This document shows, one piece after another, positions 11,822 to 50,834 of a DNA stretch of 64,000 nucleotides. Position numbers and translations under genes: made by a program. The notes beneath the pieces are model-generated. The model ran no database searches, was not told the origin of the DNA, and was given only the letters and a program-made list of their open reading frames with translations. Within the stretch, counting starts at the first letter, position 1; each line of letters begins with the position of its first letter. This DNA comes from Solirubrobacterales bacterium (GTDB lineage: Bacteria > Actinomycetota > Thermoleophilia > Solirubrobacterales > Solirubrobacteraceae): positions 1-64,000 of the forward strand of contig JAOPZS010000084.1 of NCBI GenBank assembly GCA_025963965.1, read 5' to 3'.

Positions 11822-13408
11822 TCAGCCTGGGGGCTCGGTCGGGATCTCATCCACGAACACTTCAAAGTTCATCGCGCGCAGCCGCTTCACAGTCTGGCGC
11901 AGAGCGATCTTTGAGAAGAACGGAAGCGCGGCGGCCGGGCGTTTGCTCGGCGTCGATGCCTTCGTAATCAGGCCGAGCACGACGGGCAGGCTCGCCGATT
12001 TCGGCGGCTCGGTGATCAGAGCCGCGAGTGTCGCGTCGGTTTCGCTCAGTTTTCCGCGCAGAGCGACTCGAAACGCGGGCTCCTCGAGCAGTGCTTCGCC
12101 GGAGACGGAGGCTTGCGCGAACAGGTGGCTCAACGGCGCGGAGCCACCCTTGCGTCGCTTCACATGAATGAAGTGGCCTCGTGGCGAGAACAGATCACAG
12201 GGCTCGATCGCCGACAGCCCGGGCAGCCGGATCAGGCGCTGGTCAAGCAGGGCCAGCGCCCGATCGTTGGCCGCCCGCGCGTTGTACTGGCCCTCGTTCT
12301 CTGTCCGCCGGGCTGCCGGCAGGTCCAAGCCTGACGAGCTCAGTTCGCGCGCGAAGTCGTCCACTCCCTTCGCGAAGTTACGCTGAACCCGATACCACTG
12401 ACCGTTGTCGAGTACGAGCGTCTCCGAGCCGCTTCTGCGCTCGTGGTGGAGACACTCCCAGAGCGACCAGCGGTCGATCTCGTCACCGTTGTCGTCGACG
12501 CCGATCACTTTGAAGTAACGCAGCTTCTCGTTGGCTTCCGCGCCGCTCATGGCTCTAGGGATCGCGTGGCGAAGTAGGGACGAGTCGGGCTCCACTAGCA
12601 CCAAGCCACCGAGCGGGGGGTAGGTGCGGAACTGAACGATCTCCCCCGTGACGAGCTCAGGCGGGAACAGGTCGAAGTCGGGAAACCGTCGTTCGCCGAG
12701 CCGGGTTGCGGCCGCCTCGTCCAGCGTGCTCACCTTCGTGGGATCGACGATCTCCTCGACGTTGTCGATCCACGGGTAGTGCGTCCGGTAGCCCGTCTTT
12801 TTGTACTCCCGTAGAAGGGCGGTGCAGATGCGGCCCAACGCCGAGACGCTCAGCTCGGCCGTTAGCCGAACCGCGTCCCGCCCCTCGATGCGCTTGCCCA
12901 ACGCCGGATCGCCCACTGCCCCGGCGAGCGAGGTCACCAGATCCCGTTCGATGTCGAGCTCGAGCGCCTCCACGCCCGACAGCCTGGAGACCTGGCGTTG
13001 CGTGTGAAGCGCGTATTCGTTGAAGCTTCTCGCCTGAGCTCCACGGAGTTGGGCTGGGTCCGCCGCATTGAGCGCCACACGCAGCCCGAACCGTCGCACA
13101 TAGGCGGCGGGGTCCAGCAGGTGCCGTCCCTGGCCGAACGCGATCGCAAACCACCGCCGGCTCGTCCGCAACAGCAGCACCGCGCTCGACGTCCGGGTGC
13201 GCTCAGCGACCGGAGGCTCGGTCACCGGGGCCAGCAGACGGACCCACGGCGGTTCCCGGTCATCTACCTGGGCGACATACAGCGTCGCGGTAGTACGCCC
13301 TGCGCGCACGGCATGCTCGCGGTATTCATTCGGCTCGACGCGCAGCGCATCCGTCGCGGCGGTGACGGTGTCCTTGAGTAGGTAGACGGTGATCGTCTCC
13401 GTGCCCAC
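11822..13408 (-). CDS. TIGR04141-like (DUF6119) sporadically distributed protein
   Basis: N-terminus TITVYLLKD, overall length about 528 aa and layout resemble the TIGR04141 family; assigned by recollection of family features. Confidence 0.6.
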   Translation of the reverse strand: MGTETITVYLLKDTVTAATDALRVEPNEYREHAVRAGRTTATLYVAQVDDREPPWVRLLAPVTEPPVAERTRTSSAVLLLRTSRRWFAIAFGQGRHLLDPAAYVRRFGLRVALNAADPAQLRGAQARSFNEYALHTQRQVSRLSGVEALELDIERDLVTSLAGAVGDPALGKRIEGRDAVRLTAELSVSALGRICTALLREYKKTGYRTHYPWIDNVEEIVDPTKVSTLDEAAATRLGERRFPDFDLFPPELVTGEIVQFRTYPPLGGLVLVEPDSSLLRHAIPRAMSGAEANEKLRYFKVIGVDDNGDEIDRWSLWECLHHERRSGSETLVLDNGQWYRVQRNFAKGVDDFARELSSSGLDLPAARRTENEGQYNARAANDRALALLDQRLIRLPGLSAIEPCDLFSPRGHFIHVKRRKGGSAPLSHLFAQASVSGEALLEEPAFRVALRGKLSETDATLAALITEPPKSASLPVVLGLITKASTPSKRPAAALPFFSKIALRQTVKRLRAMNFEVFVDEIPTEPPG

Positions 13409-19325: not shown

Positions 19326-19398
19326 GGGGCCATAGCTCAGCTGGGAGAGCGCCTGCTTTGCAAGCAGGAGGTCGCCGGTTCGATCCCGGCTGGCTCCA
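19326..19398 (+). tRNA. tRNA-Ala (anticodon TGC)
   Basis: GGGGCCATAGCTCAGCTGGGAGAGCGCCTGCTTTGCAAGCAGGAGGTCGCCGGTTCGATCCCGGCTGGCTCCA folds as a full cloverleaf; CCA not encoded. Confidence 0.97.
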
Positions 19399-19659
19399 CT
19401 AGTCACGGCGCATGAACGGCGTCCCGTGTCGGCTGCCCGCGAGGTCGTCCCGGCGCCGGCCGCCGCGGGTCAAAGCCCCGTCCGGAGGTGCCGCGATCGG
19501 CAGCAGCTGCACCCCGACCGGCCTCATGGCCGCCGAGCGATCGGCTGCCAGTAGCTCTGCGACGCGCCTTGCAATCGCCTCCACCGACTCGGGCGTGAGC
19601 TCCACCTGGCCCATCACCGTAGAATACAGTTGTCTGCAAGCGGATGGCGGCATCATCAC
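19399..19659 (-). CDS. Small protein between tRNA-Ala and integrase (possible truncated excisionase-like ORF)
   Basis: VELTPESVEAIARRVAELLAADRSAAMRPVGVQLLP; N-terminal part looks coding, C-terminal part does not. Confidence 0.3.
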   Translation of the reverse strand: MMMPPSACRQLYSTVMGQVELTPESVEAIARRVAELLAADRSAAMRPVGVQLLPIAAPPDGALTRGGRRRDDLAGSRHGTPFMRRD

Positions 19660-20618
19660 CGGTCTGGTCCCAGGTTTCCTTCCACGTCTTCGCCTCGCGA
19701 TGGTATGCGGAGGTCGAGCCGGGCGTGCGGCCCAAGAGCGCCGAGTCGCTCCGCTGGGCGCTGTCCCACCACCTGCTCCCGTTCTTCGCGGGCCACCATC
19801 TCGGCGAGATCACGGTCGCTGAGGTCGACCGCTACCGCACCGACAAGCTGATCGAGGAACGCCTGAGCGCGTCGTCGATCAACAAAACCCTGCGGCTGCT
19901 CGGACAGATCATGGACGCCGCCGTCGAGCGGGAGCTCGTCGATCGCAACCCGATGTGGATCAACCGCCGCCGCCGCTACGTCCGCGCCGCGTCCCCAAAC
20001 GGCACGCATCTCAGCCGCGCCGTACACATCCAAGCGCTGCTCGACGCCGCGGGCGAGCTTGACCAGGATGCCCCGCACGGTCACCGCTCCCGACGCGCGA
20101 TGCTCGCCACTCTTGTGTTCGCCGGCCTCCGGATCTCCGAGCTGCTCGAGCTGCGCTGGACCGACGTCGACACCAACGCGGGACGGCTGACCGTCCGGCG
20201 CGGCAAGACCCCGGCGGCAGCCCGAGAGATCGTCCTGTTGGCGGCTCTCACCGAGGAGCTCGGGATGCTGCGCGCCCGCCGGACCCGTCTTGCCGAGCAG
20301 CTCGTGTTCGAAGGCACCCGTGGTGGGCGCTGGACCGCCGAGAATCTGCGCCGCCGCGTGCTGCGCCCCGCCGTCGAGCGCGCCAACGAACGCCTCGGGG
20401 CCGCCGGCTCGGCCACACTACCGGAGCCGGTGACCCATCACTCGCTGCGCCGCACGTACGCCTCGCTCATGTTCGCGATCGGTTGCACTCCGCCGGAGGT
20501 GATGGACGCCCTCGGTCACGTCGACGCCCGCACGACGCTCCAGATCTACGCGCGAGCCATGCGGCGGGAGGAGGACGAAGTCGAGCTTCTGCGCTGCCTT
20601 ACGGGCGTGAATGAATGA
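19644..20618 (+). CDS. Tyrosine-type site-specific integrase
   Basis: Core-binding N-terminal domain, GLRISELLELRW (Arg), HHSLRRTYASLM (HxxR), LGHVDARTTLQIYARAM (H...Y). Confidence 0.95.
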   Translation: MAASSPVWSQVSFHVFASRWYAEVEPGVRPKSAESLRWALSHHLLPFFAGHHLGEITVAEVDRYRTDKLIEERLSASSINKTLRLLGQIMDAAVERELVDRNPMWINRRRRYVRAASPNGTHLSRAVHIQALLDAAGELDQDAPHGHRSRRAMLATLVFAGLRISELLELRWTDVDTNAGRLTVRRGKTPAAAREIVLLAALTEELGMLRARRTRLAEQLVFEGTRGGRWTAENLRRRVLRPAVERANERLGAAGSATLPEPVTHHSLRRTYASLMFAIGCTPPEVMDALGHVDARTTLQIYARAMRREEDEVELLRCLTGVNE

Positions 20619-20648: not shown

Positions 20649-20900
20649 ATGATCGTCGGAGTCGACATAGATGGCGTGCTCGCGAATCAAATCGAGGGGG
20701 TGCTGCCTCAAATTAAGCGTCGACACGGCATCGATCTGGGCTACGAAGACATCACGCATTTTCGGTTGCCGATAGCCGGTACCGACATTGCTTTGGAGAT
20801 CCTCGAGGCAATGACTGTCCCGACTACTTGCTCAGCATGCCGGTACACGAGGGGGCGCACGAGCTCCTACGGTGGTTGGTCGGGCGTCATACGGTCAAGC
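20649..20900 (+). pseudogene. Truncated/frameshifted HAD-like 5'-nucleotidase fragment
   Basis: MIVGVDIDGVLANQIEGVLPQIKRRHGIDLGYEDITHF, then a different frame reads DYLLSMPVHEGAHELLRWLVGRHTVK. Confidence 0.5.
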
Positions 20901-20960
20901 GAGGGGCTGCATGCTTTGATATTGTTTTGTTCAACCATTCCCCTATCAATGGAGAAGAGG

Positions 20961-21308
20961 ATGACCACAGCACAGCTACAGAAGATCAAAAGCGCCCATG
21001 ACCTGCTCGGCTCGTTGCTTACGGAGGCTGGCGGCGACTCTCAGCCAGCTGACCAGCCGGCCTGGCGGCAGGAAGAAGAAAAGCGCTGGCGGCTGATGAA
21101 GGCCGTCGATCTCCGCGGGGGCGACGTGGGGGACCAGGAGTGGATCAAGGTCGGTGCGCAGCATGGCTACCAGTCGCAAGGACTCGGTGGCTTCTTTCGG
21201 GGCTCAGCGCCGTACATGGGGATGCAGGGCAAAAGGCGCGTGCTCACAGACCACGGTCGTACGTTTGTCGCCCGCTGGGAGCCGGAGTTCGGGCCGTACC
21301 AGGCCTAA
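20961..21308 (+). CDS. Hypothetical protein
   Basis: MTTAQLQKIKSAHDLLGSLLTEAGG...FGPYQA; 115 aa in the frame of ORF 20649-21308. Confidence 0.5.
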   Translation: MTTAQLQKIKSAHDLLGSLLTEAGGDSQPADQPAWRQEEEKRWRLMKAVDLRGGDVGDQEWIKVGAQHGYQSQGLGGFFRGSAPYMGMQGKRRVLTDHGRTFVARWEPEFGPYQA

Positions 21309-21404: not shown

Positions 21405-21440
21405 GAGATAGCATACGAACATATGTTCGTATGCTATCTC
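21405..21440. promoter_or_regulatory. Perfect 36-bp palindrome with LexA/SOS-box-type core
   Basis: GAGATAGCATACGAACATATGTTCGTATGCTATCTC is its own reverse complement; centre CGAAC-ATAT-GTTCG matches the Gram-positive/actinobacterial SOS box GAAC-N4-GTTC. Confidence 0.8.
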
Positions 21441-21476
21441 GCAGGGGACGCCGCCGCGCCTAGTAGCTTCTCAGCT

Positions 21477-23135
21477 GTGGCGCCCCCCGGTCAATTGGAG
21501 CTTGACGGCTTCGGCAGGCCTGATGGAGCGGTTGCTGCTCGGCGGAGCACGCCGCTCTACGGCGTCCATGCCTACCACACGAAGGTGCCCGCTGAGGCGA
21601 TCGCTGGCTTCATCGTCGACCACACGAGCCCAGGGGACACGGTGCTCGATCCGTTCTGTGGCTCGGGCATGACCGGCGTGGCGGCGACAATGACCGGACG
21701 CAAGGCCGTGCTCAACGACTTGAGCCCCGCGGCCGTTCATATCGCCACGAACTACACGACGCCTTGCGAGCCAGGCGCTTTCGAGATGGCGGTGGCCCGG
21801 GTTCTGGAGAACGTCGGGGACGAGATTGAGGCCCTGTACGCGACACGTCATTCGGGTCGGCCGGCCACAATCGAGTATCTCGTCTGGAGCGATGTTCGTC
21901 GCTGCACCGAGTGCGGCGAAGATCTCCTACTTTGGGATCACCGGACGTCCGGCCTGCGGACCGTGTGCTGTTCGGGGTGCGGATATGAGGCGAGCAAGGC
22001 CACGATGTTGGTAGTGGGCGAGGAGGCGGTCGAGGCAAATCTGAGCGCGCCGGGAGGGCACCGCCGAGTCGTGCGGAGCGTGGTCCCCGATGATCTCAGA
22101 CCAGATCTCAATCTTGACTCGCTGCCCTGGTACCCGTCGACGAGGTTCGACTCCACGCGACCGATGTGGCGACGCGGGCATAGCGACTTAGGCATCTCAA
22201 CGGTCGCGGACTTTTACTCCGCGAGGAATCTGAAGGCGCTGAGCCTGTTGTGGAACGCCGCCAATGGTGAGCCCGATGAGCGGGTCAGACTGGCGCTTCG
22301 GTTTTCGCTTACGGCTATCGCGAATCGTGCGAGCCGGCGCTACCAGTGGAACGCAAAGCGGCCTACAAATGTGCTCGGCGGAACCCTGTATGTGTCCAGC
22401 CTCCGTTATGAGTGGAACGTGTTGTCTCTCTGGCGTCGGAAGACTCGCGCAATCGTGCGCCTCTTCCGCTCAGGAGCAGCTGTTGAGGGCGCCGTACAGA
22501 CAATCCGAGGGTCAGCGACTCGTTTGCCTCTTCCTGACGGCTCAATCGACTACTGCTTCACGGATCCCCCTTTTGGTTCCCACATCGTTTACAGCGACGC
22601 CTCGCTCCTGTGGGAGGCGTGGCTCGACGACCTGACCGACCGCGCGTCTGAGGCGATTGTCGTCCGAGGGGGCGACCACTCGAAGTCCGTGTCTGACTAC
22701 GGGGATCTGCTTCAGGCGTCGTTCGCCGAGATCCGACGGGTTCTCAGGCCCGAGGGGAAGGCGACGATCGTGTTCCAAGCAAGCGATCCAGACACATGGT
22801 CGGCGGTCTACAAAGCGGCATTGCGCGCTGGGTTGAGCTTTTCTGATGCGACAACGCTCAGTAAGGGGCAGCCGTCGTTTAAGCAGGTGAAGGGCCAACG
22901 TGAAGGCGAGATGGTGGCCGAGACCGACGTCGTGTTGACTTTTTCCCGCGAGCCTGCGAGGTCTCCAGCACCGACGATCAATCTCGCGGAAGCGGTTCGA
23001 GCGGCGGTGACCGCCCGATCGGATGCGGGCGAGATCAGCGCCGGCGCGATCTTCGGCGACGTCAATGCGCGGCTCCTCCGTGGCGCGGCTGAGCCCGTAG
23101 GTATTCGGGAAGTCCATGACGCGCTCGCCACATAG
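21477..23135 (+). CDS. DNA methyltransferase (N4/N6-type) with internal zinc ribbon, paralog 1
   Basis: TKVPAEAIAGFIVDHTSPGDTVLDPFCGSGMTGVAA and DYCFTDPPFGSHIVYSD; C-x2-C...C-x2-C in between. ORF opens at 21423, inside the palindrome; GTG at 21477 is a likelier start. Confidence 0.88.
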   Translation: MAPPGQLELDGFGRPDGAVAARRSTPLYGVHAYHTKVPAEAIAGFIVDHTSPGDTVLDPFCGSGMTGVAATMTGRKAVLNDLSPAAVHIATNYTTPCEPGAFEMAVARVLENVGDEIEALYATRHSGRPATIEYLVWSDVRRCTECGEDLLLWDHRTSGLRTVCCSGCGYEASKATMLVVGEEAVEANLSAPGGHRRVVRSVVPDDLRPDLNLDSLPWYPSTRFDSTRPMWRRGHSDLGISTVADFYSARNLKALSLLWNAANGEPDERVRLALRFSLTAIANRASRRYQWNAKRPTNVLGGTLYVSSLRYEWNVLSLWRRKTRAIVRLFRSGAAVEGAVQTIRGSATRLPLPDGSIDYCFTDPPFGSHIVYSDASLLWEAWLDDLTDRASEAIVVRGGDHSKSVSDYGDLLQASFAEIRRVLRPEGKATIVFQASDPDTWSAVYKAALRAGLSFSDATTLSKGQPSFKQVKGQREGEMVAETDVVLTFSREPARSPAPTINLAEAVRAAVTARSDAGEISAGAIFGDVNARLLRGAAEPVGIREVHDALAT

Positions 23136-23147
23136 CGAGATGACGAC

Positions 23148-24983
23148 ATGAAACCACCTAGCTTCGACCATCTCTACCCGCAGTTCGGACACCTGGCGGT
23201 CGAGCCGGTTGGAACTTCGCCGCTCGATGTCGAGCCGCTTGGGATTTCCACCCGTGGCCGCAAGAACACGCCGGCATATAACGCACACTCGTATCCGACC
23301 AAGGTTCCCGCCGAGGCGATCGAGCCCTACATCGAGCACCACACTCGGGAGGGCGATCTGATCCTCGATCCGTTCTGTGGCTCGGGCATGACGGGCCTTG
23401 CTGCGGTGAGGCTTGGCCGCCACGCGGTTCTCAACGATCTTTCCTACGGCGCCACTCATCTCGCTTGGAACCTGTGTGAGCCGTGCGACCCCGGAGAGCT
23501 CGAGGAAGCGGCCGGCGCGGTGCTGGCCGCCGTTGCGGACGAATACGCCGACCTTTACTCGACGCCTGGGCGAGGCCGAAAGCCGGCGACGATTCGCTGG
23601 ACATTGAACTCGACGGTCCTGGCCTGTTCGTCTTGCGGAGAGGGATCGATGTTGTGGGACGACGCGACCGATCGAGTCCGTGGGACTGTCGCAAGAAGCT
23701 GGCCGTGTTCGCACTGCGGAGAGCTCATCGACAAGCAAAGCGCCAAGCAGCTTGGATCGGAGCCGGCATGGATGCTTGTAGAAGACGAGAACGGCACGTT
23801 TGAGCGAGAACCTAGGCCGGTTGATCTCAAGCGGCTTGCCCGACTTGAGCGGGAGGGGATCGCCGATTGGTCCCCAAGCCTGCCGTTGGGCCCCGATCGC
23901 GAGATGTACATTCGGAGCGCCCTGCATCTTCGTGGCGTCCATGACGTCGCCGACTTCTGGACGACTCGCAATCGTCGTGCCCTCGCGATTCTCTGGCGCG
24001 AGATCCAGCACACAGATGACCTGCGCCTGCGGCAAGCGCTCTCCTTTGCCTTCACTAACACCGCCTGGCATGCAACGCGAATGCGGCGCTACAACGCTCG
24101 CGGGGGCCAACGTCCGCTGACTGGGACGCTTTACATCCCGCAGCTGTCGATCGAAGTCAATCCGGCGTTCGTCTTTGCAAACAAGATCAAGCAGCTATGC
24201 CGCTTTTATGCAGACCGCCCTGTTTCCTCGTCGGCGTCGCTTGCGGTTACACAAGGATCGGCGGCGGCCCTCTCTTTGCCAGACGCGAGCATGGATTACT
24301 GCTTCACCGATCCGCCATTCGGATCCAACATTTTTTACGCCGATTGTGCGACGGTCTGGGAGTCGTGGCTTGGCCGTACGACGCCGGTCGCCGACGAGGC
24401 CGTCGTAAACCGCTCACTACGGCCACAAGCCGGGGGGAAGACCGTCGATGCATACGCAGTTCTCATGCAGAGCGCCTTCGTGGAGGTTCAGCGGGTGCTG
24501 AAGCCAAACGCGTGGGCGACAGTGGTCTTTCAGTCGTCGGACGCCGAGGTGTGGGCGGCATTGCGCACAGCCGTAGACAACGCGGGATTTGATCTCGCCA
24601 ACGCCAACTATCTCGACAAGACTCAGCAATCCCATAAGGGCTACAAGGGGCGCGCTGGAACTGAGGACGTCGCGTCGTTCGACGTGGTTCTCAACCTCCA
24701 CAAGCCCGGCAAGCAGAGGCGCGTGCCGCGGCCGCCCGGGGGTCTCCAAGACGCCGCCGAGGTGCTGCGGGCGCATCTTGCTGCGCTGCCCCCGATTGGT
24801 TCAGACGCCGAGCTGGATCGCCAGCGAACGCTTCCCTTCCTTCATTCGCTTCTCGTCCGCGAGCACTTCAACGGGACGATTGGGCTCGAGGTTGGACGCT
24901 ACGCTCTCGTCCGCCGAATCTGTCAAGAGCGGTTCGGCGTCACTGACGCCGGCTTCTGGTATCAGCCGACGCCCGCAAGCTGA
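23148..24983 (+). CDS. DNA methyltransferase (N4/N6-type) with internal zinc ribbon, paralog 2
   Basis: TKVPAEAIEPYIEHHTREGDLILDPFCGSGMTGLAA, DYCFTDPPFGSNIFYAD, CSSCG...CSHCG zinc ribbon; same architecture as the preceding gene. Confidence 0.9.
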   Translation: MKPPSFDHLYPQFGHLAVEPVGTSPLDVEPLGISTRGRKNTPAYNAHSYPTKVPAEAIEPYIEHHTREGDLILDPFCGSGMTGLAAVRLGRHAVLNDLSYGATHLAWNLCEPCDPGELEEAAGAVLAAVADEYADLYSTPGRGRKPATIRWTLNSTVLACSSCGEGSMLWDDATDRVRGTVARSWPCSHCGELIDKQSAKQLGSEPAWMLVEDENGTFEREPRPVDLKRLARLEREGIADWSPSLPLGPDREMYIRSALHLRGVHDVADFWTTRNRRALAILWREIQHTDDLRLRQALSFAFTNTAWHATRMRRYNARGGQRPLTGTLYIPQLSIEVNPAFVFANKIKQLCRFYADRPVSSSASLAVTQGSAAALSLPDASMDYCFTDPPFGSNIFYADCATVWESWLGRTTPVADEAVVNRSLRPQAGGKTVDAYAVLMQSAFVEVQRVLKPNAWATVVFQSSDAEVWAALRTAVDNAGFDLANANYLDKTQQSHKGYKGRAGTEDVASFDVVLNLHKPGKQRRVPRPPGGLQDAAEVLRAHLAALPPIGSDAELDRQRTLPFLHSLLVREHFNGTIGLEVGRYALVRRICQERFGVTDAGFWYQPTPAS

Positions 24984-26917
24984 ACGAGCCGAGTGAGCAA
25001 CCCCGGCTTTGCCTGCTCGCCCGAGCCGAGGATAAGGACGTGTCCTGCCGTGTAATCTGCCTCCGGCACGAGGTTGAGATGGGCCGCAGCCTTGCGGTAG
25101 TTGTTGAGCGTGAATAGGTCGGCCCGGAGATCGGTAAGCGCCTCGAAGTTGGTCTCGGCCTCTGTTTCGACCAGGGCTCGAATCTGATGGTCCTCGGGCC
25201 GCTTCGGCTTTACGCACCACTTGAGGCACATCGCCGCGGTGCCGAGCGTGATCGGCCTGCGCAGGATGTCGCCCGCCCCAGTTGCAACTCGGTCAAACAA
25301 CGCTTCCGGTCCGCACAGTATCCTCTCGCATGCGGCAGATAGCCCAAGGAGAGGACCGGAGAGGTCGGCCCCCGGCGGCGCTGAGGCGCCAAAGTAGTAC
25401 GCGGTTGCGACTATCGTGCTCAACTCGTCGTCCAACCGGGGCCACGTTTCAGGTATCAACTGACTAAGGATGTGACGGTAGGGCTCTAGCGTATTTGCAG
25501 GCAGGTGTGACGCTCGGACTAGGAGGTCGCTCACGGCCTTCTCCTGGACTGCTGCGACCTGTCCCTCGTCGAGATCCTGCTCGCTGTCAGCTGGCTGGGC
25601 GAACGCGGTCTCGTCGGAGCGACGCAGCATTTCCATGACCATGTCAGCGATCCTGTCGAAGCCGAGCTCGTGGTCGGCGCTGGCCGGGCCGACACCAACC
25701 GAGAGCATTTGTCCGTCGCCGCCGTCCACGAAGGTCTCGACGACCGTACTTGCGACGTTGTAGTAGACAATCGCGCCACGTCGCGCCGCAGGGCTACCTG
25801 TGTTGTCAAAATATCCGAGGAGCTTGTACAGCTCCTCGGTCGGGTGGTGATCTCGCTGCCTGAGCTTTGCATCCACGTAAGCAAGCGATTCGCCCGAGCG
25901 TGCCGTAGAGATCACCACGGTGATGTCGGGTACGCCGTCGAATGGCGCTGGTGGTTCGCGACGCCGCCATACGGTTTGGCCGACGCCGCTGCTTAGGGCG
26001 CGTTGGAAGTGGACGGCCACGGTTGCAAGGCCCTGCTTCCAAAAAAAGGTCGGATTCGCCCCCCGGTCCCATAGGGGACGCGAGATCGCATGCCCCAATT
26101 TCGGGGCAAGAGCACGCTCCAGCCGGTCGAGCATCCAGATCTCGAAGAGCTTTGTATCGAAGCGCTCGTCGTAGAACGACCACTCAACGTCCGATGTCTC
26201 AGGAAGTCCTTGCGGATCAAAGTTCCGCACCCAATCCACGAGCGCGCCGTACGGCTCCGGCCGAGCCAGGTGCCCGCCAACGACGCGCGCTTCGACCGAA
26301 TCGAGGAGGGGTTCGAGGTGCCCCGCCCGCCATGCCGATTCAGCGCTAGCCCGCGCCTCCGCAAGGACGGGATGATTCAGCGTACGCGCGAGCGCGACCC
26401 GCCGCTCGCGCACCTCTCGACGCTCGGGCGAGTTCGGAGGTAGGACGAGATCCTCCGCAACATCGAGTTCACGGAGGATCCAGCCAGTCGCGTAGATGGC
26501 CAACACGTTCTCCGGGGTAACGTGCGATCGCTCCACGACAACTACGGGATACCGGCGCGGTGCCTCCCGCTTTCCCTGAGACCGGAGGTACCGCTGCACG
26601 TCGAGTCGTCCGCGCACCATGCCAACCGTTTCGTCCTCGACTCGGCGGTAGCGGAAGCTGAGGTCAGCACCGATCTCGCGGAGCAAGGTGTCGAGGCGTC
26701 GCGCTGCAGATAGAGCGATTCGGAGACGCAGCGAGCGTGCCACGAGGTCGTCGTCGCTCTCCCCGGTGGAAATATCTGCTCGGTGCTCGAGTTCCCAAGT
26801 CGGGGCATCCGCGAAGTACGTCCCGAGAAGGCGGATTGCGGCCTGCGTGGCGGCAGTACGAGCCTCCGGGCTAAGTTGCCCCGGAAGCACCGGTTCTTCA
26901 GCGGCGGTGAGGCTCAC
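24962..26917 (-). CDS. McrC-like / DUF2357-type PD-(D/E)XK nuclease subunit
   Basis: McrC-like layout with FDGVPDITVVISTARSGESLAYVDAKLR (PD...DAK nuclease motif); downstream of a McrB-like AAA+ gene. Confidence 0.7.
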   Translation of the reverse strand: MSLTAAEEPVLPGQLSPEARTAATQAAIRLLGTYFADAPTWELEHRADISTGESDDDLVARSLRLRIALSAARRLDTLLREIGADLSFRYRRVEDETVGMVRGRLDVQRYLRSQGKREAPRRYPVVVVERSHVTPENVLAIYATGWILRELDVAEDLVLPPNSPERREVRERRVALARTLNHPVLAEARASAESAWRAGHLEPLLDSVEARVVGGHLARPEPYGALVDWVRNFDPQGLPETSDVEWSFYDERFDTKLFEIWMLDRLERALAPKLGHAISRPLWDRGANPTFFWKQGLATVAVHFQRALSSGVGQTVWRRREPPAPFDGVPDITVVISTARSGESLAYVDAKLRQRDHHPTEELYKLLGYFDNTGSPAARRGAIVYYNVASTVVETFVDGGDGQMLSVGVGPASADHELGFDRIADMVMEMLRRSDETAFAQPADSEQDLDEGQVAAVQEKAVSDLLVRASHLPANTLEPYRHILSQLIPETWPRLDDELSTIVATAYYFGASAPPGADLSGPLLGLSAACERILCGPEALFDRVATGAGDILRRPITLGTAAMCLKWCVKPKRPEDHQIRALVETEAETNFEALTDLRADLFTLNNYRKAAAHLNLVPEADYTAGHVLILGSGEQAKPGLLTRLVQLAGVG

Positions 26918-28125
26918 CCGAACGAGGCCCGCTGGCTCCGCCGAACGCGCTGCAACGCGCTCTCACTGCGGGGCAAGTTGCCGGCCTCAGCAAGCCAAGC
27001 TTCAATCGCGTCCAGCTGCGTGCGAAGCAGACCACTGACCTGGGGAATCAGCGCGTCGCTCAACGCGAGGTCGAGAGCCTCAATCAAGTCCGCGGTGTCG
27101 CCTCGAGCAGACCTGACGATGATCTGCCGCATGACGTCGCCAGCCTGGGCGGTACCAATCGGCCAAGCGACGCTCTCGCCGTAGCGCAGAAATTCGATGA
27201 GGCTCTGCAGGTGGGCGGCAGCGCCTTTAATGTGCTCGTCATCTGCGAGTCGCTTGCTCTCGGACGGTTTCGCAGCGCCGTCGAGGTCCGGTCGATACGT
27301 CTCGACCCACCACGAAGCCGCTTGTACCGTTACCGCCACAATCTCGGCCGCCACTTGGTCCTGCTCCGGTACTCCGACATGGACGAACTGGAAGCGCCGT
27401 TGCAGTCCCTGGGATAGAGAGTAAACGTAGGCAGTGTCGACGGAGTTCAGTGTGCCGATAATGCGAAAGCGCTCCGGGATCCAGCACTCAAGAGTCTCGG
27501 GCGTATCCCCGAACCAGAGAGGGAGCCGACGGTGGGACGGGCCACCGCCCCGCCCGAGAACGGTGTAGAGCGGTCCGACTGCCTTATCGATCTCGGCCCG
27601 GTTGAACTCGTCGATGATCAGCCAGTGAGCCTGGTCGGGATTGGCTTTGTCGTCGTCTGCGTGAAGGTTGATCGCGTCGGCGCAGCGCAAGGCGGCTCGT
27701 GGTACGTGGCCGAGCCATGGCTTCAGTACCTCAGTGTCGTGCTCGCCTACGGCAGGCTGCAACCCGCCGATAACGTCAAACGTGCTCCAGTCCGCCGTGG
27801 CGGTCTCAGTGTCGTAGGAAGCGCGGAACGCGGCCGCGACAATCCCGGCGAGCGTCGTCTTGCCGGTCCCCGGTGGCCCTGCAAGAATGAGATGTCCACC
27901 GAGCAGCGACACCACCACCCGCTCAATTAGGGCCTGTGCGTCAGGAAGGAGAAGTCCGGCCTGATTGACGCCTGCTTCGACGTCGCGGACCAGGGCGTCG
28001 AGGTCCTCGACAATAAGCGGCTCATCCGCAATCACCCGAGCGGCGCGGTAGTCGTGCTCGCCGATGTGGTCCAGGTATTTGACTTGACCGGCGGCGCCGG
28101 CTGCTGACAGTGGATTGCTACTCAT
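26914..28125 (-). CDS. McrB-like AAA+ NTPase
   Basis: LILAGPPGTGKTTLAGIV Walker A, HWLIIDEFNRAEIDKAVG Walker B, RIIGTLNSVDTAYVYSLSQGLQRRFQFV sensor/Arg-finger region; ATG at 28125 overlaps the upstream stop by ATGA. Confidence 0.85.
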   Translation of the reverse strand: MSSNPLSAAGAAGQVKYLDHIGEHDYRAARVIADEPLIVEDLDALVRDVEAGVNQAGLLLPDAQALIERVVVSLLGGHLILAGPPGTGKTTLAGIVAAAFRASYDTETATADWSTFDVIGGLQPAVGEHDTEVLKPWLGHVPRAALRCADAINLHADDDKANPDQAHWLIIDEFNRAEIDKAVGPLYTVLGRGGGPSHRRLPLWFGDTPETLECWIPERFRIIGTLNSVDTAYVYSLSQGLQRRFQFVHVGVPEQDQVAAEIVAVTVQAASWWVETYRPDLDGAAKPSESKRLADDEHIKGAAAHLQSLIEFLRYGESVAWPIGTAQAGDVMRQIIVRSARGDTADLIEALDLALSDALIPQVSGLLRTQLDAIEAWLAEAGNLPRSESALQRVRRSQRASFG

Positions 28126-29231
28126 TCGAGCGCCTCGATCGTCGTTTTTGGTAGATCGTCCACGATGCCTACCCGCCGGCATCGGAACCGTATGAACCGA
28201 CGCGGATAGCCAGCCTTTGTCTTCTCTTCGACGGGTTCGAGAGATGCAATCCGCCAGAGCGCACGGTCTGAGACGCGCTTCCGGCTATCGAGAATCAGGA
28301 GGCGGTCTTTCTCGCGCAGCCAGCTCGTCGGCTGCGAGGCATGCACTTTCCCGACGATCACGATGTTGTTCGCGTCGACCGTGGTCACGCTCACCGGAAC
28401 GATCGCCGCAACCTTCGGATCGTGCAGCCCGTGGGCCCACTTGATGAAGTCGGCGACGTGCTGGGCATCAAAGCCAAGACGAGCGTCGTGGCGCTGGCCT
28501 TCAAGTATCGAGCCGTTCTTTCTGACCGCCCTGATGACCGCCCTCTTGGTGTGGACGCTTGAGGAGCCTCCCGTATAGCGCCTGGCCCAAGCGTCGAAAC
28601 CGACAAAGACTTCGTCGTCGCGGTGCCAGCCGATCCCGACGGTAACCCGCGATTTCTCGTCCATTAGCGGGCCGCCGTGCGCACGGGTCGTCTGGATTCT
28701 GAAGTCGTCCTTGCCGCGGCCGAAGCCCTCAAGCGTCAGGAACCAGGAGTAGATCAGCAGCTTCGTTAGGTGCGGTCCGATCCGAAGGTCGACCCGCGTG
28801 GGGTTCAACCCACCAGAATTCGACACTGCCTGGCGGAGATCCACGCTGTATCCAACCGCTTGGGCAGCATCGAGCAGCTTCGCGAGTGGTTCTCCGGATT
28901 TTCCGGTGGCAGTGCTTGGCGATCTCGGCGAGGCGGGCACGAGTGTGGATACTAGTCGGGACGTTACGTGCCTTTCCACGACGAGTTGTCCGGCCGGACC
29001 GCGTCCGGGCACCTCGGGCGCACGTATGCAGTTGAACGCTGGCGAGTCAGGCTGCCGCCTTGGCGGCGCGATCCGATTTGCCGGCCAAACTCGACTAGCT
29101 ACTCTTCCCGATCGCGGCGAACAGAGGTCTTCATTTCGCCGTGGGCACTGCGCGGTCTCGAGCGGACAGCGTTGCGGGGATTCGAAACTACGTTCGATTC
29201 CCACCGCGCCTTTCGTCGGAGTCGCCGTCAT
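28122..29231 (-). CDS. Methylase-associated X1-like component (putative), upstream of mcrB-like gene
   Basis: VTVGIGWHRDDEVFVGFDAWARRYTGGSSSVHTKRAVIRAVRKNGSILEG resembles the X1 domain seen in methylase/McrBC-type clusters; N-terminal ~85 aa of the ORF look non-coding, so the true start is probably nearer 28979. Confidence 0.5.
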   Translation of the reverse strand: MTATPTKGAVGIERSFESPQRCPLETAQCPRRNEDLCSPRSGRVASRVWPANRIAPPRRQPDSPAFNCIRAPEVPGRGPAGQLVVERHVTSRLVSTLVPASPRSPSTATGKSGEPLAKLLDAAQAVGYSVDLRQAVSNSGGLNPTRVDLRIGPHLTKLLIYSWFLTLEGFGRGKDDFRIQTTRAHGGPLMDEKSRVTVGIGWHRDDEVFVGFDAWARRYTGGSSSVHTKRAVIRAVRKNGSILEGQRHDARLGFDAQHVADFIKWAHGLHDPKVAAIVPVSVTTVDANNIVIVGKVHASQPTSWLREKDRLLILDSRKRVSDRALWRIASLEPVEEKTKAGYPRRFIRFRCRRVGIVDDLPKTTIEALE

Positions 29232-29240
29232 GATGGGTGG

Positions 29241-29597
29241 ATGAGCGAGCTTGAGCAGACACTCGTGCGAATCGCCAACGCCAGCGAGCGGATTGCAAGC
29301 GCCCTGGAGTCAGTCGCACGCACGCGGCTGGATAGCGGTCCGAAGCGGAGGCTGACCGTGGCCGGGTCGCTCAATGACAGCAGCGGCCTCGGTGCCGTCA
29401 ACTCACAACCACGGTACGCTCAACGCGATCATCCAAAACCTCGGCGACGCGGAGACCACGCTGCTCGAGCCAATCGCCGAAATCGGCAGTGTGAGAGCGT
29501 CAGGTCAGATCATCCAGCGCGGCGCCCAACCAGAGTCCGTCGGGGAGGTGCCCTCCGTGCCGAACGGGCCCGGGATCACCGTGACCTTCAAGCTTGA
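29241..29597 (+). CDS. Small hypothetical protein, possibly frameshifted
   Basis: MSELEQTLVRIANASERIASALESVARTRLDSGPKRRLTVAGSLND, then frame 1 reads HNHGTLNAIIQNLGDAETTLLEPIAEIGSVRASGQ. Confidence 0.35.
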   Translation: MSELEQTLVRIANASERIASALESVARTRLDSGPKRRLTVAGSLNDSSGLGAVNSQPRYAQRDHPKPRRRGDHAARANRRNRQCESVRSDHPARRPTRVRRGGALRAERARDHRDLQA

Positions 29598-29652
29598 GGT
29601 CGCGGGTTCGAGACCCGTTCACCTTAGAAGAAACAGAAGCCATATTTGGCTC
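29597..29652 (+). other. tRNA 3'-end-like fragment followed by hairpin (candidate att remnant)
   Basis: GAGGTCGCGGGTTCGAGACCCGTTCACC (T-arm GCGGG-TTCGAGA-CCCGT) then CAGAAGCCATATTTGGCTCTG hairpin; no 5' half found. Confidence 0.4.
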
Positions 29653-30033: not shown

Positions 30034-30228
30034 GCCGGTAGATCCGGCGCCCAGTCCGGCGGGCCGCCAGCTAAGGGAGCGCCGCCGCAGCCGCGGAGCG
30101 ACCGCCTCACAAAGCGAAAAAGCCGAACACCGACCGCCGGCGGACGGATCTTTCGCCGCCCGAGTCGTCCCAGCTCATCTGGCGGGTCGTGGTGGACGCA
30201 GGCAACCACATCGGATGGAGGCAAAGAA

Positions 30229-30556
30229 TGTCCGCTCCGGATGTAAACCAGGTCGTTCTCGTCGGCCGGCTCACGAAGGACCCACATTCCCGACAACTCA
30301 AGGGCGGCGGCAGCGTCTGCGAGCTGCGCGTCGCCGTCAACGACCACCGGGAACGCGAAGCGCTGTTCATCGACATCGCAACGTTCGGCAACAGGCCGAC
30401 GCATGCGCCACCTACCTGAAGAAGGGCCCGCAGGTCGCCGTCGCCGGCCGCCTCGTCCGCGACGAGTAGCAAAACAAGGACGGCCAGCCCCGCTCCCGGT
30501 ACCTCGTGATCGGCAAGGTCTCCTTCGGCAACGACCGCAACGAGACCGGCCCGGGA
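30229..30556 (+). pseudogene. Single-stranded DNA-binding protein remnant
   Basis: MSAPDVNQVVLVGRLTKDPHSRQLKGGGSVCELRVAVNDHREREALFIDIATFG, frameshift, then ATYLKKGPQVAVAGRLVRDE*QNKDGQPRSRYLVIGKVSFGN (in-frame TAG). Confidence 0.75.
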
Positions 30557-30558
30557 CC

Positions 30559-30726
30559 ACACTTGACGGGCCGCTCCTCACCCCCGCCCAGGCCGCCGCG
30601 CTCCTCAACGTCAAGACCAGCTGGATCTGCGAAGCCACCCGCACCGGCAAACTCCCCTGCATCCGCCTCGGCCGACGCATCAGGTTCACGCGGGTCATGC
30701 TAGAAAAGTGGCTAGACGTCCGCTGA
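30559..30726 (+). CDS. Excisionase-family helix-turn-helix domain (start uncertain)
   Basis: LDGPLLTPAQAAALLNVKTSWICEATRTGKLPCIRLGRRIRFTRVMLEKWLDVR. Confidence 0.65.
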   Translation, partial: TLDGPLLTPAQAAALLNVKTSWICEATRTGKLPCIRLGRRIRFTRVMLEKWLDVR

Positions 30727-33259: not shown

Positions 33260-34330
33260 GTGGCGCTGATCATCGACCGCACGCAAACGGCGACCGCGCT
33301 CGACGCCGAAGCGTTCGCTGCGTGGGCACACACCCATACCGTCTTCGTCTCCAGCGAGATGAGCGAACTAGCCAGCGAACGGCGCGCCGTCGCCGACCAT
33401 CTCCGCGCTCTCGGCTTGACGGTCATCATGTTCGAGGATCTCGGAGGTCGAGAGGACGACCGCGAAACCGCCTACCCCGGCGGTGTCGCACGCAGCGACA
33501 TCTACCTCGCGATCATCACCGACCGGTATGGGCGCATACCCACGACGAGTACCGCGCGGCGCGCAAGCGCGGCAAGCGGATCGCAGCGTGGGTCGCAGCC
33601 GATGAGCAGAACCGTCAAGGTGACGCCCGCGACTTCGTCGCCGAGCTACAGGTCTTCCACTCGACTGGAACGTTCACCGACGAGCACTCCCTCATTCGGT
33701 CCGTTGAGCAACGGATCCGCGAGATCGCAGCCGAGCAGGACTCCCCCTGGCTCAAGCTCGGTGACCTGCTCCTCCGTGCAACCTCGATCGAGGACGACCG
33801 AACGCGCCTCGTGATCACGTCGCGGACCCGGGACCGCGACGTGATCAGCGTGCTGGTCTCGATGAGGCCCGGCCCTACGTGCGCGCGAGCCCGTCGCTGC
33901 GGGTGACCTACGGCGACCGCTCTGGCGAGGCTCGCATCATCGAGGTCTCTTCGCGAAGCCGCTCAGCCTCACTTCAGGACCTCACCGTGATTATCGAGCT
34001 CGCCTGGACCGAGCCTCGGCGGCCGGCGCTCGATGCAAGTCAACGGCGTGAGCTTCGAGGAGCAGCTCGAGGTTGGGCTCAACGCGGGCGTCTTCGGTCA
34101 GTCGCCGCCGCAGCAGCTGGGGGCGCTCGCCGGAACGATCGACCGGAGCGACCCGCTGGCTGCGCTCGACGCCGATCGCTCAAGCACGCCGTCTACGAGC
34201 CGGTCGCACGGCTGCTGATCGCCGAGCGGCTGCTGTCGGCGGGCGCCAGTCACGTCGACGTCGCGGTAGGAATCGTTCGCGCTGGACGCTGGCGGCTCGA
34301 CCTGTCCTGGACAGATCCATCCATCTACGG
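33260..34330 (+). pseudogene. DUF4062-type gene with multiple frameshifts
   Basis: TVFVSSEMSELASERRAVADHLRALGLTVIMFEDLGGREDDRETAYPGGVARSDIYLAIITDRYGRIP continues in other frames as HDEYRAARKRGKRIAAWVA...FVAELQVFHSTGTFTDEHSLIRSVEQRIREIAAEQDSPWLKLGDLL and VYEPVARLLIAERLLSAGASHVDVAVGIVRAGRWRLDLSW. Confidence 0.7.
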
Positions 34331-39247: not shown

Positions 39248-39297
39248 TCGCCGTGTTAGGCGGACAACCGCACGGCCGGTCTAGCTCGGGGGTTGCG

Positions 39298-42200
39298 ATG
39301 CGTGGGATGGGGCGTTGGGTACTGGGCATGGTCTGCTTCGCGGCGATCGGTGGCGGAGTCTGGACAGCGCCGGCGTTCGCGGATGGCGGGCAGGGAGAAG
39401 CGGGATTTTCGCTCGCTTCCCGTGCGCTGCTCGTACCTGCCGTGGAGATCTTGGACGGGGGACTGCAGATCTCGGCAGTCCAACGTGCGCGTCACTCTGC
39501 GCCATATGCCGTCGCGGCTCGTGTGTCTTCGCGTTCCCGGTTCAAAGGACTTGGAGCGGCTCGCGCCAGGGGACTAGCGGGTGAGCTATTCCCATGGATC
39601 GTCGACCGAGCCGCCGGGGGCTTGTTGTTGCCGAAGGGGTCGCATGTCACCGCGTTCGTCGGCGATCACGCGGCGGTCGTGGATCTTGGCTCAGGGCGCC
39701 GGGGAGTCATAGAAGCATCACAGCCAGTGTCGGTTGCCGCTGGAGACGGTCGGCGCATGCCTGTAGATCTCGGGTTACGCCAGCATGACGGCGTGTTCGG
39801 GCCACGCGTATCTGACGTTCCAGTCCTGATCCCAAAGCGGTTGGCAGCCGGTCTGGCCCTGCCCGGAACGGGGGTCTCGCTGACCCCCGTGGACCAGGCA
39901 GGCACGCCGATTTCCGGAGGAGACGGGACACTCGATCATTCCGGCGTGTTCTTCGCGAACACACAGCTCGACGCCGATACGCTTGTTAAGCCAACGAGCG
40001 AGGGATTCGAGGAGTACACGTTCCTGCGCTCGGCAGCGAGTCCACGACGTCTGTTCTTCCGGGTAAACATGCCGGCCGGAGGGCGGCTCGTGCAGCAGAC
40101 ACCCGGTCAAGGGGCCGCGAAGGTTCTCGTAAATGGTGCGCAGGTGGCGGCCGTGCTCGCGCCAGGCGCCGAGGATGCAACCGGGACGCAGGTGCCTGTG
40201 TTGATGCGAGTCTCAGGCAAGCAGGTGATCCTCTCGCTCGCTGACGACCCTCGCGGTTACCAGTATCCCATCGCGGTCGATCCGACGTTCGTCGAGGAAC
40301 AGGTCGTCGATGCCGGGGCCCGTCGGTCAAACTGGGAATTTCACACTAATAACCCCGGCGCGTTCAAATGGAGCATGAAGGGCGGCCCGATTATCGAAAC
40401 CTGGGGCGCCGGCTCCTCATACAACCCCGGTGACTTCGGCTTCTGGGGCTACCAGACGCAGGGCAACTCCGACATCTATCAGGTGACGGCGGCCACATGG
40501 GCCGCGAACGCCGGTGCGCACCTCGAAAGCATCCTGGAACTCCAGCACGGGGAAGGCGCAGCTGGGGTCACCGAAAGCAAAGAACTGCTGTCGTCAGAAG
40601 CGGCAGGCACGGCCGAATACGCGGACAAGATCACGACTATCTGCCCGACGACAGTCAACGCGTGCCTTCCGTTGACGGGCCATGAACACAACGCTGTGCA
40701 CTTCCAGCAGTCCGCTGCGAAAGCCTGCAGCGGCTGCAGCTTCTCGGACTCCATCCGCGAGGGCTTGGTCTATCTCTCCCAGCCCGGACACGCAAAAACT
40801 AACCTAAACACAAGCTCGCCAGAATTTGAATTCGAAGTCGAACAAAAAAAACAAAAAAGGATCAACGCGCTGTTTGGCACAGGGCGATGGCTCAGCAGGT
40901 TTCAAGGCGCACTCGGGCTCAATGCCGAAGACGCCGGGATAGGAGTGTCACAAGCAAAACTCGAATACGAAAGCGCACCCGGGCAGTGGGAACAGGTGAT
41001 CGAACACAACTATCTCGAAAAAGAAAACCTATGCAAGGGAGTGCAGTGCTTTCCTACCCATAGCGAAGTCTGGACGTTGAACAGCCGGCTGCCCAACGGA
41101 GAAGACAAGATCCGCTACAGCGCCAGGGACGCCATGCCCGGCACGGAATCAACCGCCAGCGAAGGCGCCGCAACCGTCAAAGTCGATGCCGCTGCCCCGC
41201 ACGACGTCGTTATGTCGGGCCTCCCGTTCAGCGACGAAATCAGAGAAGCGCCTTACGAAATCACCGGCGAAGCCACCGACGGGGACGGCAGCACAGTTGC
41301 GAGCTCAGGAATCAAGACGCTCTCACTCTTCGTCGACGGGAAAGAAGTCGGGGAACCGGGAGGTGCCTGCGCGAAGCCAAAAGGCGAATGCACCGGCGTG
41401 GCCAAATGGACTGTCAACGGGGCAGAACTCGGCGCTGGCAACGCAACGATTGTGCTCGTCGCGACGGACAACGCAAACAACGAAGCAAGGCACGGAGAAC
41501 TCGTCACGGTCCTGCACTCGAAACCCGTCCCACTCGGACCCGGAAGCCTAAATCTGGAGTCAGGAAACTTCAGTGTTGGCGCGAGCGATGTGGCGATGGG
41601 GACAGGACTGACGGCATCGCGCAACTACAGCTCAAGAGACGTCACTAGCGGAGAATCCGGGCCCCTCGGGCCGCTTTGGGGCCTGAGCGTAGCTACAAGC
41701 GAGTCACTGCTGGAACTCGGAGAAGGCAGCGTCGAGCTGACCTCCGCAAACGGGAGTCAAAGCCTCTTCCTAAGCCTTGGCCCCGGCCTCGGCTACCAGC
41801 CCCCCGCCGGCGACGCCAACCTGGCGCTGACCTTCGAAGAAGACGAAAAACACGAAAAGGTCGCGTACTACCTGTCCAATGCCGCCGACAAGTCGAAAGT
41901 AAAGTTCACGAAGATCGGCGCCTCTCCTAACTGGGTGCCAACCGTGCAAGAAGGACCCGTCACGACGGATACCGTTACCTACCGCTGGCAGACAGTCGAA
42001 GAAGAAGGCCATCAGATCACAGAGCCGATCGAAACTCGCGCACCAGTCCCACCCGGCGTCGAATGCTCGTGGAAAACGAAACCAACCGAAATGCACGCGG
42101 GCTGTCGCGCGCTCGAGTTCACCTACTACGCCAGCACCACCGCCGGCGAAGCAGAAGAAGCCTGGGGACCATACAAAGGCCGACTCAAACAAGTCGCGCT

Positions 42201-49183: not shown

Positions 49184-50194
49184 TTATCGGGCGCCCTCGA
49201 TCCCGAACTCCTGCTGTGCTGAGGCCGAACGTAGAGAGCTCGCGATACCGGTCCGAGGGCGAGGAGCCGCGGGGGCCCTTCCCGCCGAGTGCTCCTCAAC
49301 ACGTCGCGGCTTCGCGAGAGCTAGAGCGGCCGCTCGCTTCCGTCGCTGCGACCACGCTCCCGTTCTTCGATTGGGCGGCACCGGACGGGTAGCGCGTCGA
49401 CTTGACGCGGAACCTGCGGGATGTGCGCCCGGTGAGGAGCCGACTATCCCGGCGGCGCCCGCCCCGAAGAGCGCGATGCTCGCTGCGGCGGCTCCCGCCT
49501 TCGCGGACAATCCTGTCCCGAACAGCCATCGCCGCGTCGCCGCAAAGCCAGCGGCGAGCATTGGAACTGGGGCCGCCAGCAGCTGCACCGACCGGGCTTG
49601 CGGGTGAGGCTGCCACCCCTGCGCGTGACGCAAGCGAAAATGGGCTCGCTTGCGCTCGACTGTTCGGGCGGCCCGCCGTGCCTCGTTCACGTCGACACCA
49701 AGCCGGCGTGCGATTGCACGGTAGCGGAGGCCCTCAGCCGTCAGCTCGAATACGCGTTGCTCGAACGGATCGAGCTCCCCAAGGAACTCGAGGACCACCT
49801 GTCGGTCCTCACCCCGGAGCGCCATGCTCTCCGGCGACATCGTCTCGGCGGAAGACTCCGCCATTTGATGCATGCTGGGCGCGTGCTCGGCGAGGATCTG
49901 CCCCCGACGACGCGTGTCGCGGTGCAGGTTCAGTGCGCGGTGCCTAATCCCGCGGCGCAGCGCGTTACGCAGATGCTCCTCATTGCCATACGGACGCGCG
50001 AGCAGTGCGAGCACCGTCTCCTGGTAGAGATCCTCGAGCTGCTCGGTCGATAGGCCCCTGCACTCCAGGAACCCGCGCGCGATCCTGATCTCCGCGGGCT
50101 GCCAGCTCCCAAGTACCTCCCCGGCGCTCCGGGACCCGAGCGAACTATCGCGCCAACGGGATGGACGAGTCGCTGTTGTGCTGCTGACCTCCAT
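49184..50194 (-). CDS. Sigma-70/ECF-type sigma factor with C-terminal membrane-anchored extension
   Basis: LEDLYQETVLALLARPYGNEEHLRNALRRGIRHRALNLHRDTRRR (region 2-like), LDPFEQRVFELTAEGLRYRAIARRLGVDVNEARRAARTVERKR (region 4-like), then hydrophobic segment SAKAGAAAASIALFGAGAAGIVG. Confidence 0.75.
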   Translation of the reverse strand: MEVSSTTATRPSRWRDSSLGSRSAGEVLGSWQPAEIRIARGFLECRGLSTEQLEDLYQETVLALLARPYGNEEHLRNALRRGIRHRALNLHRDTRRRGQILAEHAPSMHQMAESSAETMSPESMALRGEDRQVVLEFLGELDPFEQRVFELTAEGLRYRAIARRLGVDVNEARRAARTVERKRAHFRLRHAQGWQPHPQARSVQLLAAPVPMLAAGFAATRRWLFGTGLSAKAGAAAASIALFGAGAAGIVGSSPGAHPAGSASSRRATRPVPPNRRTGAWSQRRKRAAALALAKPRRVEEHSAGRAPAAPRPRTGIASSLRSASAQQEFGIEGAR

Positions 50195-50195
50195 G

Positions 50196-50834
50196 TCAAC
50201 ACCTCCCGTCGCAGGGCGACGATCCGGGAACGGACGTATGTAGATAGGTCGAGCCGGACAGCGTGTTGCCCACCCCCGGAGTTCGAAGTGGACGGTGGGG
50301 AACTCCGAACGTCTCGACGCTTGCCGCCCCGGCGAGCAGCGCCGCTAGCGTTGCCAGCACTGCGATGCGGTCCTTCGATCTGAGCGGGCCGAGGGACAGC
50401 CCCACGGAGGCGCCGAGCGCGAGGGCCGCCCACTCGAGTGGGATCTGCGGCGCGAAGCGAGCGACCCGAATCCCGTATGCGCTGAACGCGGCGCCGACCG
50501 GGAACGCGTTTGCGCCGAGTGCCCCGCACACCAGACAACGCGCGATGCGGCGGCTTCGAGTGGAGTGGCCAGCTCCCGCCGCGTCGAGCAGCAGCGGCCA
50601 CGCCGCGACCGGCAGGTTGTGGGCGGCCAGAGCAAGAGCACGCCCGGCCGATGGAGCGGGCGTCCGCGCGGCGGACAGCCTCAAGGCGAGCCAGCCACGG
50701 ACCGGGACCGCGAGGCTCTCGCCGGCCCCGAGTACCACCAGGCCGACCGCGACGGTGAAAGCGCATAGGGCCAGGAACACGAGCGGCCAGCGCGCCACGG
50801 CTCCCTGGAGCCGGGTCAGCTCTGAGGTTCCCAT
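50196..50834 (-). CDS. Multi-TM membrane protein in T4SS operon
   Basis: Multiple hydrophobic helices (WPLVFLALCAFTVAVGLVVLG, ARCLVCGALGANAFPVGAAFSAYG, IAVLATLAALLAGAAS). Confidence 0.6.
   Translation of the reverse strand: MGTSELTRLQGAVARWPLVFLALCAFTVAVGLVVLGAGESLAVPVRGWLALRLSAARTPAPSAGRALALAAHNLPVAAWPLLLDAAGAGHSTRSRRIARCLVCGALGANAFPVGAAFSAYGIRVARFAPQIPLEWAALALGASVGLSLGPLRSKDRIAVLATLAALLAGAASVETFGVPHRPLRTPGVGNTLSGSTYLHTSVPGSSPCDGRC

Follow-up and report, generated by a model that had tools for sequence, protein, structure and literature searches.

This analysis concerns a five-gene cluster in a stretch of 64,000 nucleotides from a Solirubrobacterales bacterium (contig JAOPZS010000084.1), referred to here as the window. 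Two adjacent methyltransferase genes on the forward strand, MT1 and MT2, are convergent with a three-gene operon on the reverse strand that encodes a protein with an MTaX1 domain (X1), a McrB-like AAA+ protein (AAA) and a McrC-like protein. The functions that we give to all five genes are predicted from their sequences. The cluster contains the following features.

21405–21440, no strand: perfect 36-nt palindrome with a LexA-type box, CGAACATATGTTCG, at its centre (21416–21429); likely operator of the methyltransferase operon
21477–23135, forward strand: MT1, predicted N6/N4-type DNA methyltransferase; probable GTG start, frame open from an ATG at 21423
23148–24983, forward strand: MT2, paralogue of MT1 with identical methyltransferase motifs
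24962–26917, reverse strand: McrC-like nuclease with a C-terminal HEPN-like domain; 651 amino acids, GTG start
24965–25600, reverse strand: C-terminal all-helical domain of the McrC-like protein, residues 440–651 (AlphaFold2 (AF2), Foldseek and motif alignment)
25079–25096, reverse strand: candidate HEPN motif Rx4H (R608 ... H613), invariant in nine aligned sequences
25865–25930, reverse strand: PD-(D/E)XK motif of the McrC-like protein (P330 D331 ... D349 x K351)
26914–28125, reverse strand: McrB-like AAA+ protein, predicted GTPase; 403 amino acids, ATG start
27436–27447, reverse strand: McrB GTPase signature NxxD (NSVD); N and D invariant
28122–28940, reverse strand: X1, MTaX1 protein and predicted site-recognition subunit; 272 amino acids from a corrected start
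28503–28763, reverse strand: MTaX1 domain (PF20296) of X1, Pfam profile match

The X1 stop codon overlaps the AAA start codon (ATGA, 28122–28125) and the AAA stop codon overlaps the GTG start codon of the McrC-like gene by 4 nt (GTGA, 26914–26917), which indicates that the operon is translationally coupled. The 3' ends of MT2 and the McrC-like gene share 22 nt. Because homologues of X1 are 261–266 amino acids long, we place the X1 start near the GTG at 28940, which gives the length listed above, rather than at 29231, a position given in a preliminary description of the window that proved to be too early. MT1 probably starts at the GTG at 21477 instead of the ATG at 21423, since the latter sits within the palindrome. 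The same description had reported two adjacent paralogous methyltransferases with Cys4 ribbons, opposed by a tightly coupled X1, McrB-like and McrC-like operon, and both statements hold. MT1 and MT2 each match the Pfam N6_N4_Mtase family (2e-17 and 9e-19, respectively), have motif I as DPFCGSGMTG and motif IV as DPPFG (DPPFGS in MT1), and carry four invariant cysteines between these motifs (C161, C164, C183 and C186 in MT1). PADLOC matched both proteins to Type II methyltransferase models and to PglXI (PglXI 4e-92 and 7e-103).

A tblastn search with the McrC-like protein yielded matches on plasmids of Paenarthrobacter, Arthrobacter, Pseudarthrobacter, Mycobacterium and Cryobacterium, and a scan of GTDB species genomes yielded 12 loci, all in named actinobacteria. 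The window genome is the only one of 397 genomes of the phylum with a convincing match to the McrC-like protein, and no match was found in viral contigs and phage records. The full set of MT1, MT2, X1, AAA and McrC is present in eight further loci, which comprise Arthrobacter plasmids and genomes as well as Rhodococcus and Gordonia. Seven of the eight have the complete set in a single orientation (L004, L007, L008, L010, L012, L014 and L016), and the eighth is a plasmid (L003) in which the start of the record splits the cluster, so that MT1 appears at the opposite end of the circular sequence. Relative to the other full-set loci, the restriction operon is inverted in the window. A neighbourhood analysis of homologues had been named as a check on the idea that modification and restriction belong to one system here; all five genes occur together elsewhere, which bears the idea out and implies that the cluster is not a chance arrangement.

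Other relatives retain AAA and McrC and differ in the remaining genes. Three loci (L005, L011 and L015) combine AAA-McrC with a single N6_N4 methyltransferase and an N-terminal extension on AAA, three others (L013, L017 and L019) with two D12 methyltransferases and an unrelated protein of approximately 260 amino acids, and one (L006) with two further types of N6_N4 methyltransferase and a 389-amino-acid protein. In a tree built from AAA and McrC together, L011 clusters with L017 and L019 (support 0.93), apart from L005 and L015. This is modest evidence that the methyltransferases and the recognition part move together on an AAA-McrC chassis. We found no published name for the combinations in L005, L011 and L015 or in L013, L017 and L019. 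Gene content, coupling, co-occurrence, conserved motifs, these domain swaps and the LexA box are all direct observations.

X1 matches the MTaX1 profile with an E-value of 8e-12 (46.1 bits, against a curated cut-off of 25). MTaX1 was found in six of the 397 genomes, including the window genome, and four of the neighbourhoods were read. In two of them (L050 and L051), an MTaX1 protein that ends in a PD-(D/E)XK-like domain (D...EVK) adjoins a methyltransferase pair of the MT1/MT2 type, with 41–45% identity to the window proteins, and neither AAA nor McrC profiles matched within the stretch read. In L049, an MTaX1-HNH_2 fusion adjoins a methyltransferase shortly before the contig ends, and in L052 an MTaX1 protein adjoins a C5 methyltransferase and Vsr. 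These four loci resemble simple restriction-modification systems that share the recognition domain of X1 and, in L050 and L051, also the methyltransferase pair, but encode a PD-(D/E)XK-like or HNH nuclease in cis, and GTPase and McrC were not found. As MTaX1 is accompanied by PD-(D/E)XK-like, HNH and other partners, the simplest reading is that it is a site-reading part with interchangeable nucleases. X1 is thus most likely a site-recognition part whose own nuclease, carried elsewhere by MTaX1 proteins as a PD-(D/E)XK-like or HNH domain, has been replaced in trans by the GTPase and McrC. The model of X1 also matched DREN-APAZ chains of SPARDA (E 2e-4, TM 0.33), which we regard as a weak lead only.

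The AAA protein belongs to the Pfam AAA_5 family and its top five PDB profile matches are all McrB (1e-16 to 2e-14). It has a Walker A motif and the NxxD GTPase signature, the latter kept in all 16 relatives compared. Membership of the CoCoNuTs, which have an NxD signature, coiled coils and OB/YTH-type domains, was rejected as all 16 AAA proteins have NxxD, the form seen in the window. The adjacent 651-amino-acid protein is described as McrC-like on account of its gene order with the 4-nt overlap, its PD...DxK motif and a Cryobacterium relative. D331, D349 and K351 are invariant, and in the alignment the PD (330–331) and DxK (349–351) elements are kept among the McrC-like relatives. The Cryobacterium relative, which was retrieved with the window McrC-like protein as query, matches Pfam McrBC (PF10117) with an E-value of 7e-4, which falls short of the curated cut-off; this profile had no match in the window genome.

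The C-terminal residues 440–651 of the McrC-like protein are probably an RnlA-like HEPN RNase domain, as suggested by structure prediction and motif alignment. The AF2 model is all-helical (pLDDT 89), and in a Foldseek search against the PDB, RnlA occupies ranks 1, 2, 3, 5, 7, 8, 9, 14 and 25 (probability 0.57–0.99, TM up to 0.50). In an alignment with three RnlA proteins, which is free of gaps around the D and E, residues D518, E531, G559, R608 and H613 correspond to D245, E258, G279, R318 and H323. The domain is missing in L006, L009, L017 and L019 and kept in the other relatives. HEPN domains in restriction-modification systems have been described as fused to nucleases and ATPases, not to methylases (PMC3710099). 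In a limited literature search we found no report of a HEPN-McrC fusion; this feature appears to be new. The order of D, E, G and Rx4H, and probably the fold, are those of RnlA (RNase LS) of E. coli K-12. RnlA, however, acts as a toxin on its own and is countered by the antitoxin RnlB, whereas the window domain is fused to a predicted DNase in a restriction-modification system.

The palindrome that precedes MT1 contains a CGAACNNNNGTTCG box, the motif also found at lexA and recA. The window genome has 12 CGAACNNNNGTTCG sites compared with one for the reversed control, and lexA (TIGR00498, 1e-65), recA and uvrA each have such a site immediately upstream. SOS control of the methyltransferase operon is therefore well supported in the window genome by sequence comparison, and a LexA-type palindrome at a methyltransferase operon appears to be new. 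The restriction operon in the window showed no comparable LexA box, so the earlier suggestion of SOS control stands for the methyltransferases and not for the restriction genes. A LexA-like site at 29183 near X1, with one mismatch, was rejected as a chance occurrence (the window has six sites of this quality, against four expected). A box identical to CGAACATATGTTCG also adjoins the start of a radical SAM protein, which also shows a weak match to intein splicing, in another locus (L023, 1–1507, reverse strand).

We interpret the cluster as a mobile restriction-modification system that is Type II-like, uses an effector of the McrBC type and works in the manner of LlaJI, LlaI and BsuMI, and hold this with fairly good confidence. 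The two methyltransferases would mark the cell's own DNA and a motor-driven cutter would attack unmarked foreign DNA. MT1 and MT2 would methylate both strands of one site, probably an asymmetric one. X1 would bind the unmethylated site, in the recognition role that belongs to the N-terminal half in McrB or R1.LlaJI, and load a McrB-like GTPase ring that would travel on DNA and deliver the McrC-type PD-(D/E)XK nuclease, which would cut the DNA. The substrate, the methylated base, the site, the movement on DNA, and the RNase activity and its trigger are all predicted steps of this scheme.

The closest precedents are published. LlaJI, from Lactococcus lactis plasmid pNP40, consists of two methyltransferases, R1 (a recognition half and a GTPase half) and the McrC-like R2; it restricts unmethylated DNA and requires both R subunits in vivo (PMC1459862). 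The window cluster likewise pairs two methyltransferases with McrB-like and McrC-like subunits. In LlaI and BsuMI, restriction is encoded by a cassette of three ORFs in which the McrB subunit is small (337 and 343 amino acids). X1, the 403-amino-acid AAA and McrC can be likened to these cassettes by description, and the systems are alike in their plasmid or mobile location (PMC1459862). The window system differs from all three in its MTaX1 recognition protein, the probable HEPN domain on McrC, LexA-controlled methylation and the convergent restriction operon, and the methylases of LlaJI are of the C5-cytosine type whereas MT1 and MT2 are predicted to be of the N6/N4 type, with Cys4 ribbons and a relationship to PglXI. 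A census of McrBC systems described a branch of McrB with links to predicted DNA methyltransferases and deferred it to a later publication (PMC11090510). This branch resembles the window system in its NxxD signature and its methyltransferase link, and may be the same branch. Given the LlaJI plan, the LlaI and BsuMI cassettes and this branch, the combination is not without a named precedent, contrary to the preliminary description. Its idea of a single system is supported, as is SOS control in the case of the methyltransferases, but its claim of novelty is not supported as worded, and it missed both the probable HEPN domain and the predicted recognition role of X1.

A number of observations weigh against this interpretation. 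The McrC-like protein had no Pfam family match and no relevant match in a PDB profile search, and the GTPase motor step is borrowed from McrBC. Purified R1.LlaJI showed neither GTPase activity nor cleavage in vitro (PMC1459862). A LexA box upstream of MT1 was not found in the other loci, and the Arthrobacter-type loci have a helix-turn-helix (HTH) gene in its place; on one such plasmid (L004), this gene lies ahead of MT1, whose start it overlaps. The resemblance to RnlA rests on fold and motif order, and we grade the HEPN assignment as no more than probable because neither the Pfam scan nor the PDB profile search gave a significant match to the C-terminal domain, an hhalign comparison with RnlA was not significant alone, and the Foldseek matches to RnlA have E-values of 0.1 or worse.

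HEPN RNases are generally dimeric when active. In our interpretation the C-terminal domain would be a second, RNA-cutting effector and, given that these enzymes act as dimers, would most likely be switched on when two McrC subunits meet. A fuller version of the restriction-modification model, which we put forward tentatively, is a two-substrate effector: GTP-driven complexes would meet on unmethylated DNA, where McrC would cut and at the same time form an active dimeric HEPN RNase of the RnlA type, bringing the cell to a halt, and DNA breaks would de-repress the methyltransferases through LexA as an off switch. In the main interpretation, too, breaks in self DNA would raise the amount of MT1 and MT2 through LexA and re-protect the chromosome, although this is only one idea of what SOS control is for.

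A variant of the same model, possible but somewhat doubtful, has DNA restriction acting first, with the complex keeping the HEPN RNase inactive until either the restriction enzyme is inhibited by a phage or DNA breaks build up. PrrC, which accompanies the Type I restriction-modification system PrrI, is a precedent for a HEPN RNase attached to such a system, although PrrC is a separate ABC-ATPase fusion and the window domain is part of the nuclease subunit; fusions of HEPN to nucleases and ATPases in restriction-modification systems also favour the variant (PMC3710099), as does the absence of the domain from four relatives, which indicates that the chassis can dispense with it. A separate inhibitor or sensor gene was not found, and coupling the RNase directly to McrC assembly is the simpler arrangement, although our data do not discriminate between these possibilities. 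It is also conceivable, if unlikely, that the HEPN-like fold serves in dimerisation or binding and is inactive as an RNase. The support for RNase activity is structural and motif-based, and some HEPN families have lost their active site (PMC3710099); on the other hand, the R and H of Rx4H are invariant in all relatives that have the domain.

The prototype of the McrBC superfamily, to which AAA and McrC belong, cuts methylated DNA. X1, AAA and McrC could accordingly be a Type IV-like system that attacks foreign modified DNA, with MT1 and MT2 mainly marking self or competing with other systems, but we consider this improbable. MTaX1 is found in ordinary pairs of methyltransferase and nuclease (PD-(D/E)XK-like or HNH), the recognition parts change along with the methyltransferases on one chassis, which points to shared site recognition, and LlaJI, with an equal plan, restricts unmethylated DNA (PMC1459862). 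E. coli McrBC itself, a Type IV system, has a McrB-like GTPase and a McrC PD-(D/E)XK nuclease, as is predicted for the window cluster, but the latter has its own methyltransferases, a separate recognition protein and, as predicted here, unmethylated DNA as its target. McrBC-type parts need not imply an attack on modified DNA. Lastly, a BREX/Pgl-like system that blocks replication without cutting is very improbable despite the PglXI matches of MT1 and MT2 and the BREX-3 methyltransferases among their plasmid relatives outside the five-gene system, and BREX membership was rejected, as PglZ, BrxC-type and other BREX genes were seen neither in the cluster nor in its relatives.

The restriction-modification cluster lies on what is likely to be a mobile element. 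Its upstream boundary is formed by a tRNA gene and an integrase gene, both of which had been noted previously.

19326–19399, forward strand: tRNA-Ala(TGC), likely integration target (tRNA search)
19644–20618, forward strand: tyrosine integrase of the carrier element (profile match 1e-20)

No downstream attachment copy of the tRNA-Ala end was found in the window, and the only near match to this end elsewhere in the genome is a second tRNA-Ala gene. At the other boundary, positions 29591–29624 (forward strand) are a 34-nt copy, with one mismatch, of the 3' end of a tRNA-Gly(CCC) on another contig (C86), and look like an attachment scar of a second integrated element. Beyond it are a fragment of a single-stranded DNA-binding protein (SSB) gene and an excisionase-like HTH_17 gene (30215–30726), a TraG-type P-loop ATPase (52509–55343, reverse strand) and a type IV secretion system coupling protein (59932–61689, reverse strand). 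The genes at 30215–30726 and 50000–61700 may be the remains or the body of a conjugative element, and an element of conjugative or integrative type is therefore likely.

Several other genes in the window were recorded. A frame between the integrase and MT1 (20649–21308, forward strand) begins with weak similarity to 5'-nucleotidases and continues into a small segment unrelated to it, and Pfam gave nothing better than an E-value of 0.2. A seemingly interrupted frame at 33260–33814 (forward strand) contains a DUF4062 domain (2e-13), a domain frequent in conflict-type proteins. Upstream of the tRNA-Ala is a DUF6119 family protein (11822–13408, reverse strand; full-length match, 4e-126), and a 2492-amino-acid protein with NHL and RHS repeats is encoded at 39253–46731 (forward strand).

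For McrBC-type restriction-modification systems, these results suggest an anatomy in which the methyltransferases and X1 form a recognition module. This module appears to pair with either a fused PD-(D/E)XK-like nuclease or a GTPase-McrC machine, and another MTaX1 pairs with HNH, so that the role of the MTaX1 Pfam domain becomes testable. Since the copies on Arthrobacter plasmids belong to isolates that have been sequenced, the system is open to experiment. LexA control of methylation would link self-damage directly to self-protection and, if the HEPN assignment is true, the HEPN-McrC fusion would unite DNA restriction with RNA-based shutdown in a single protein.

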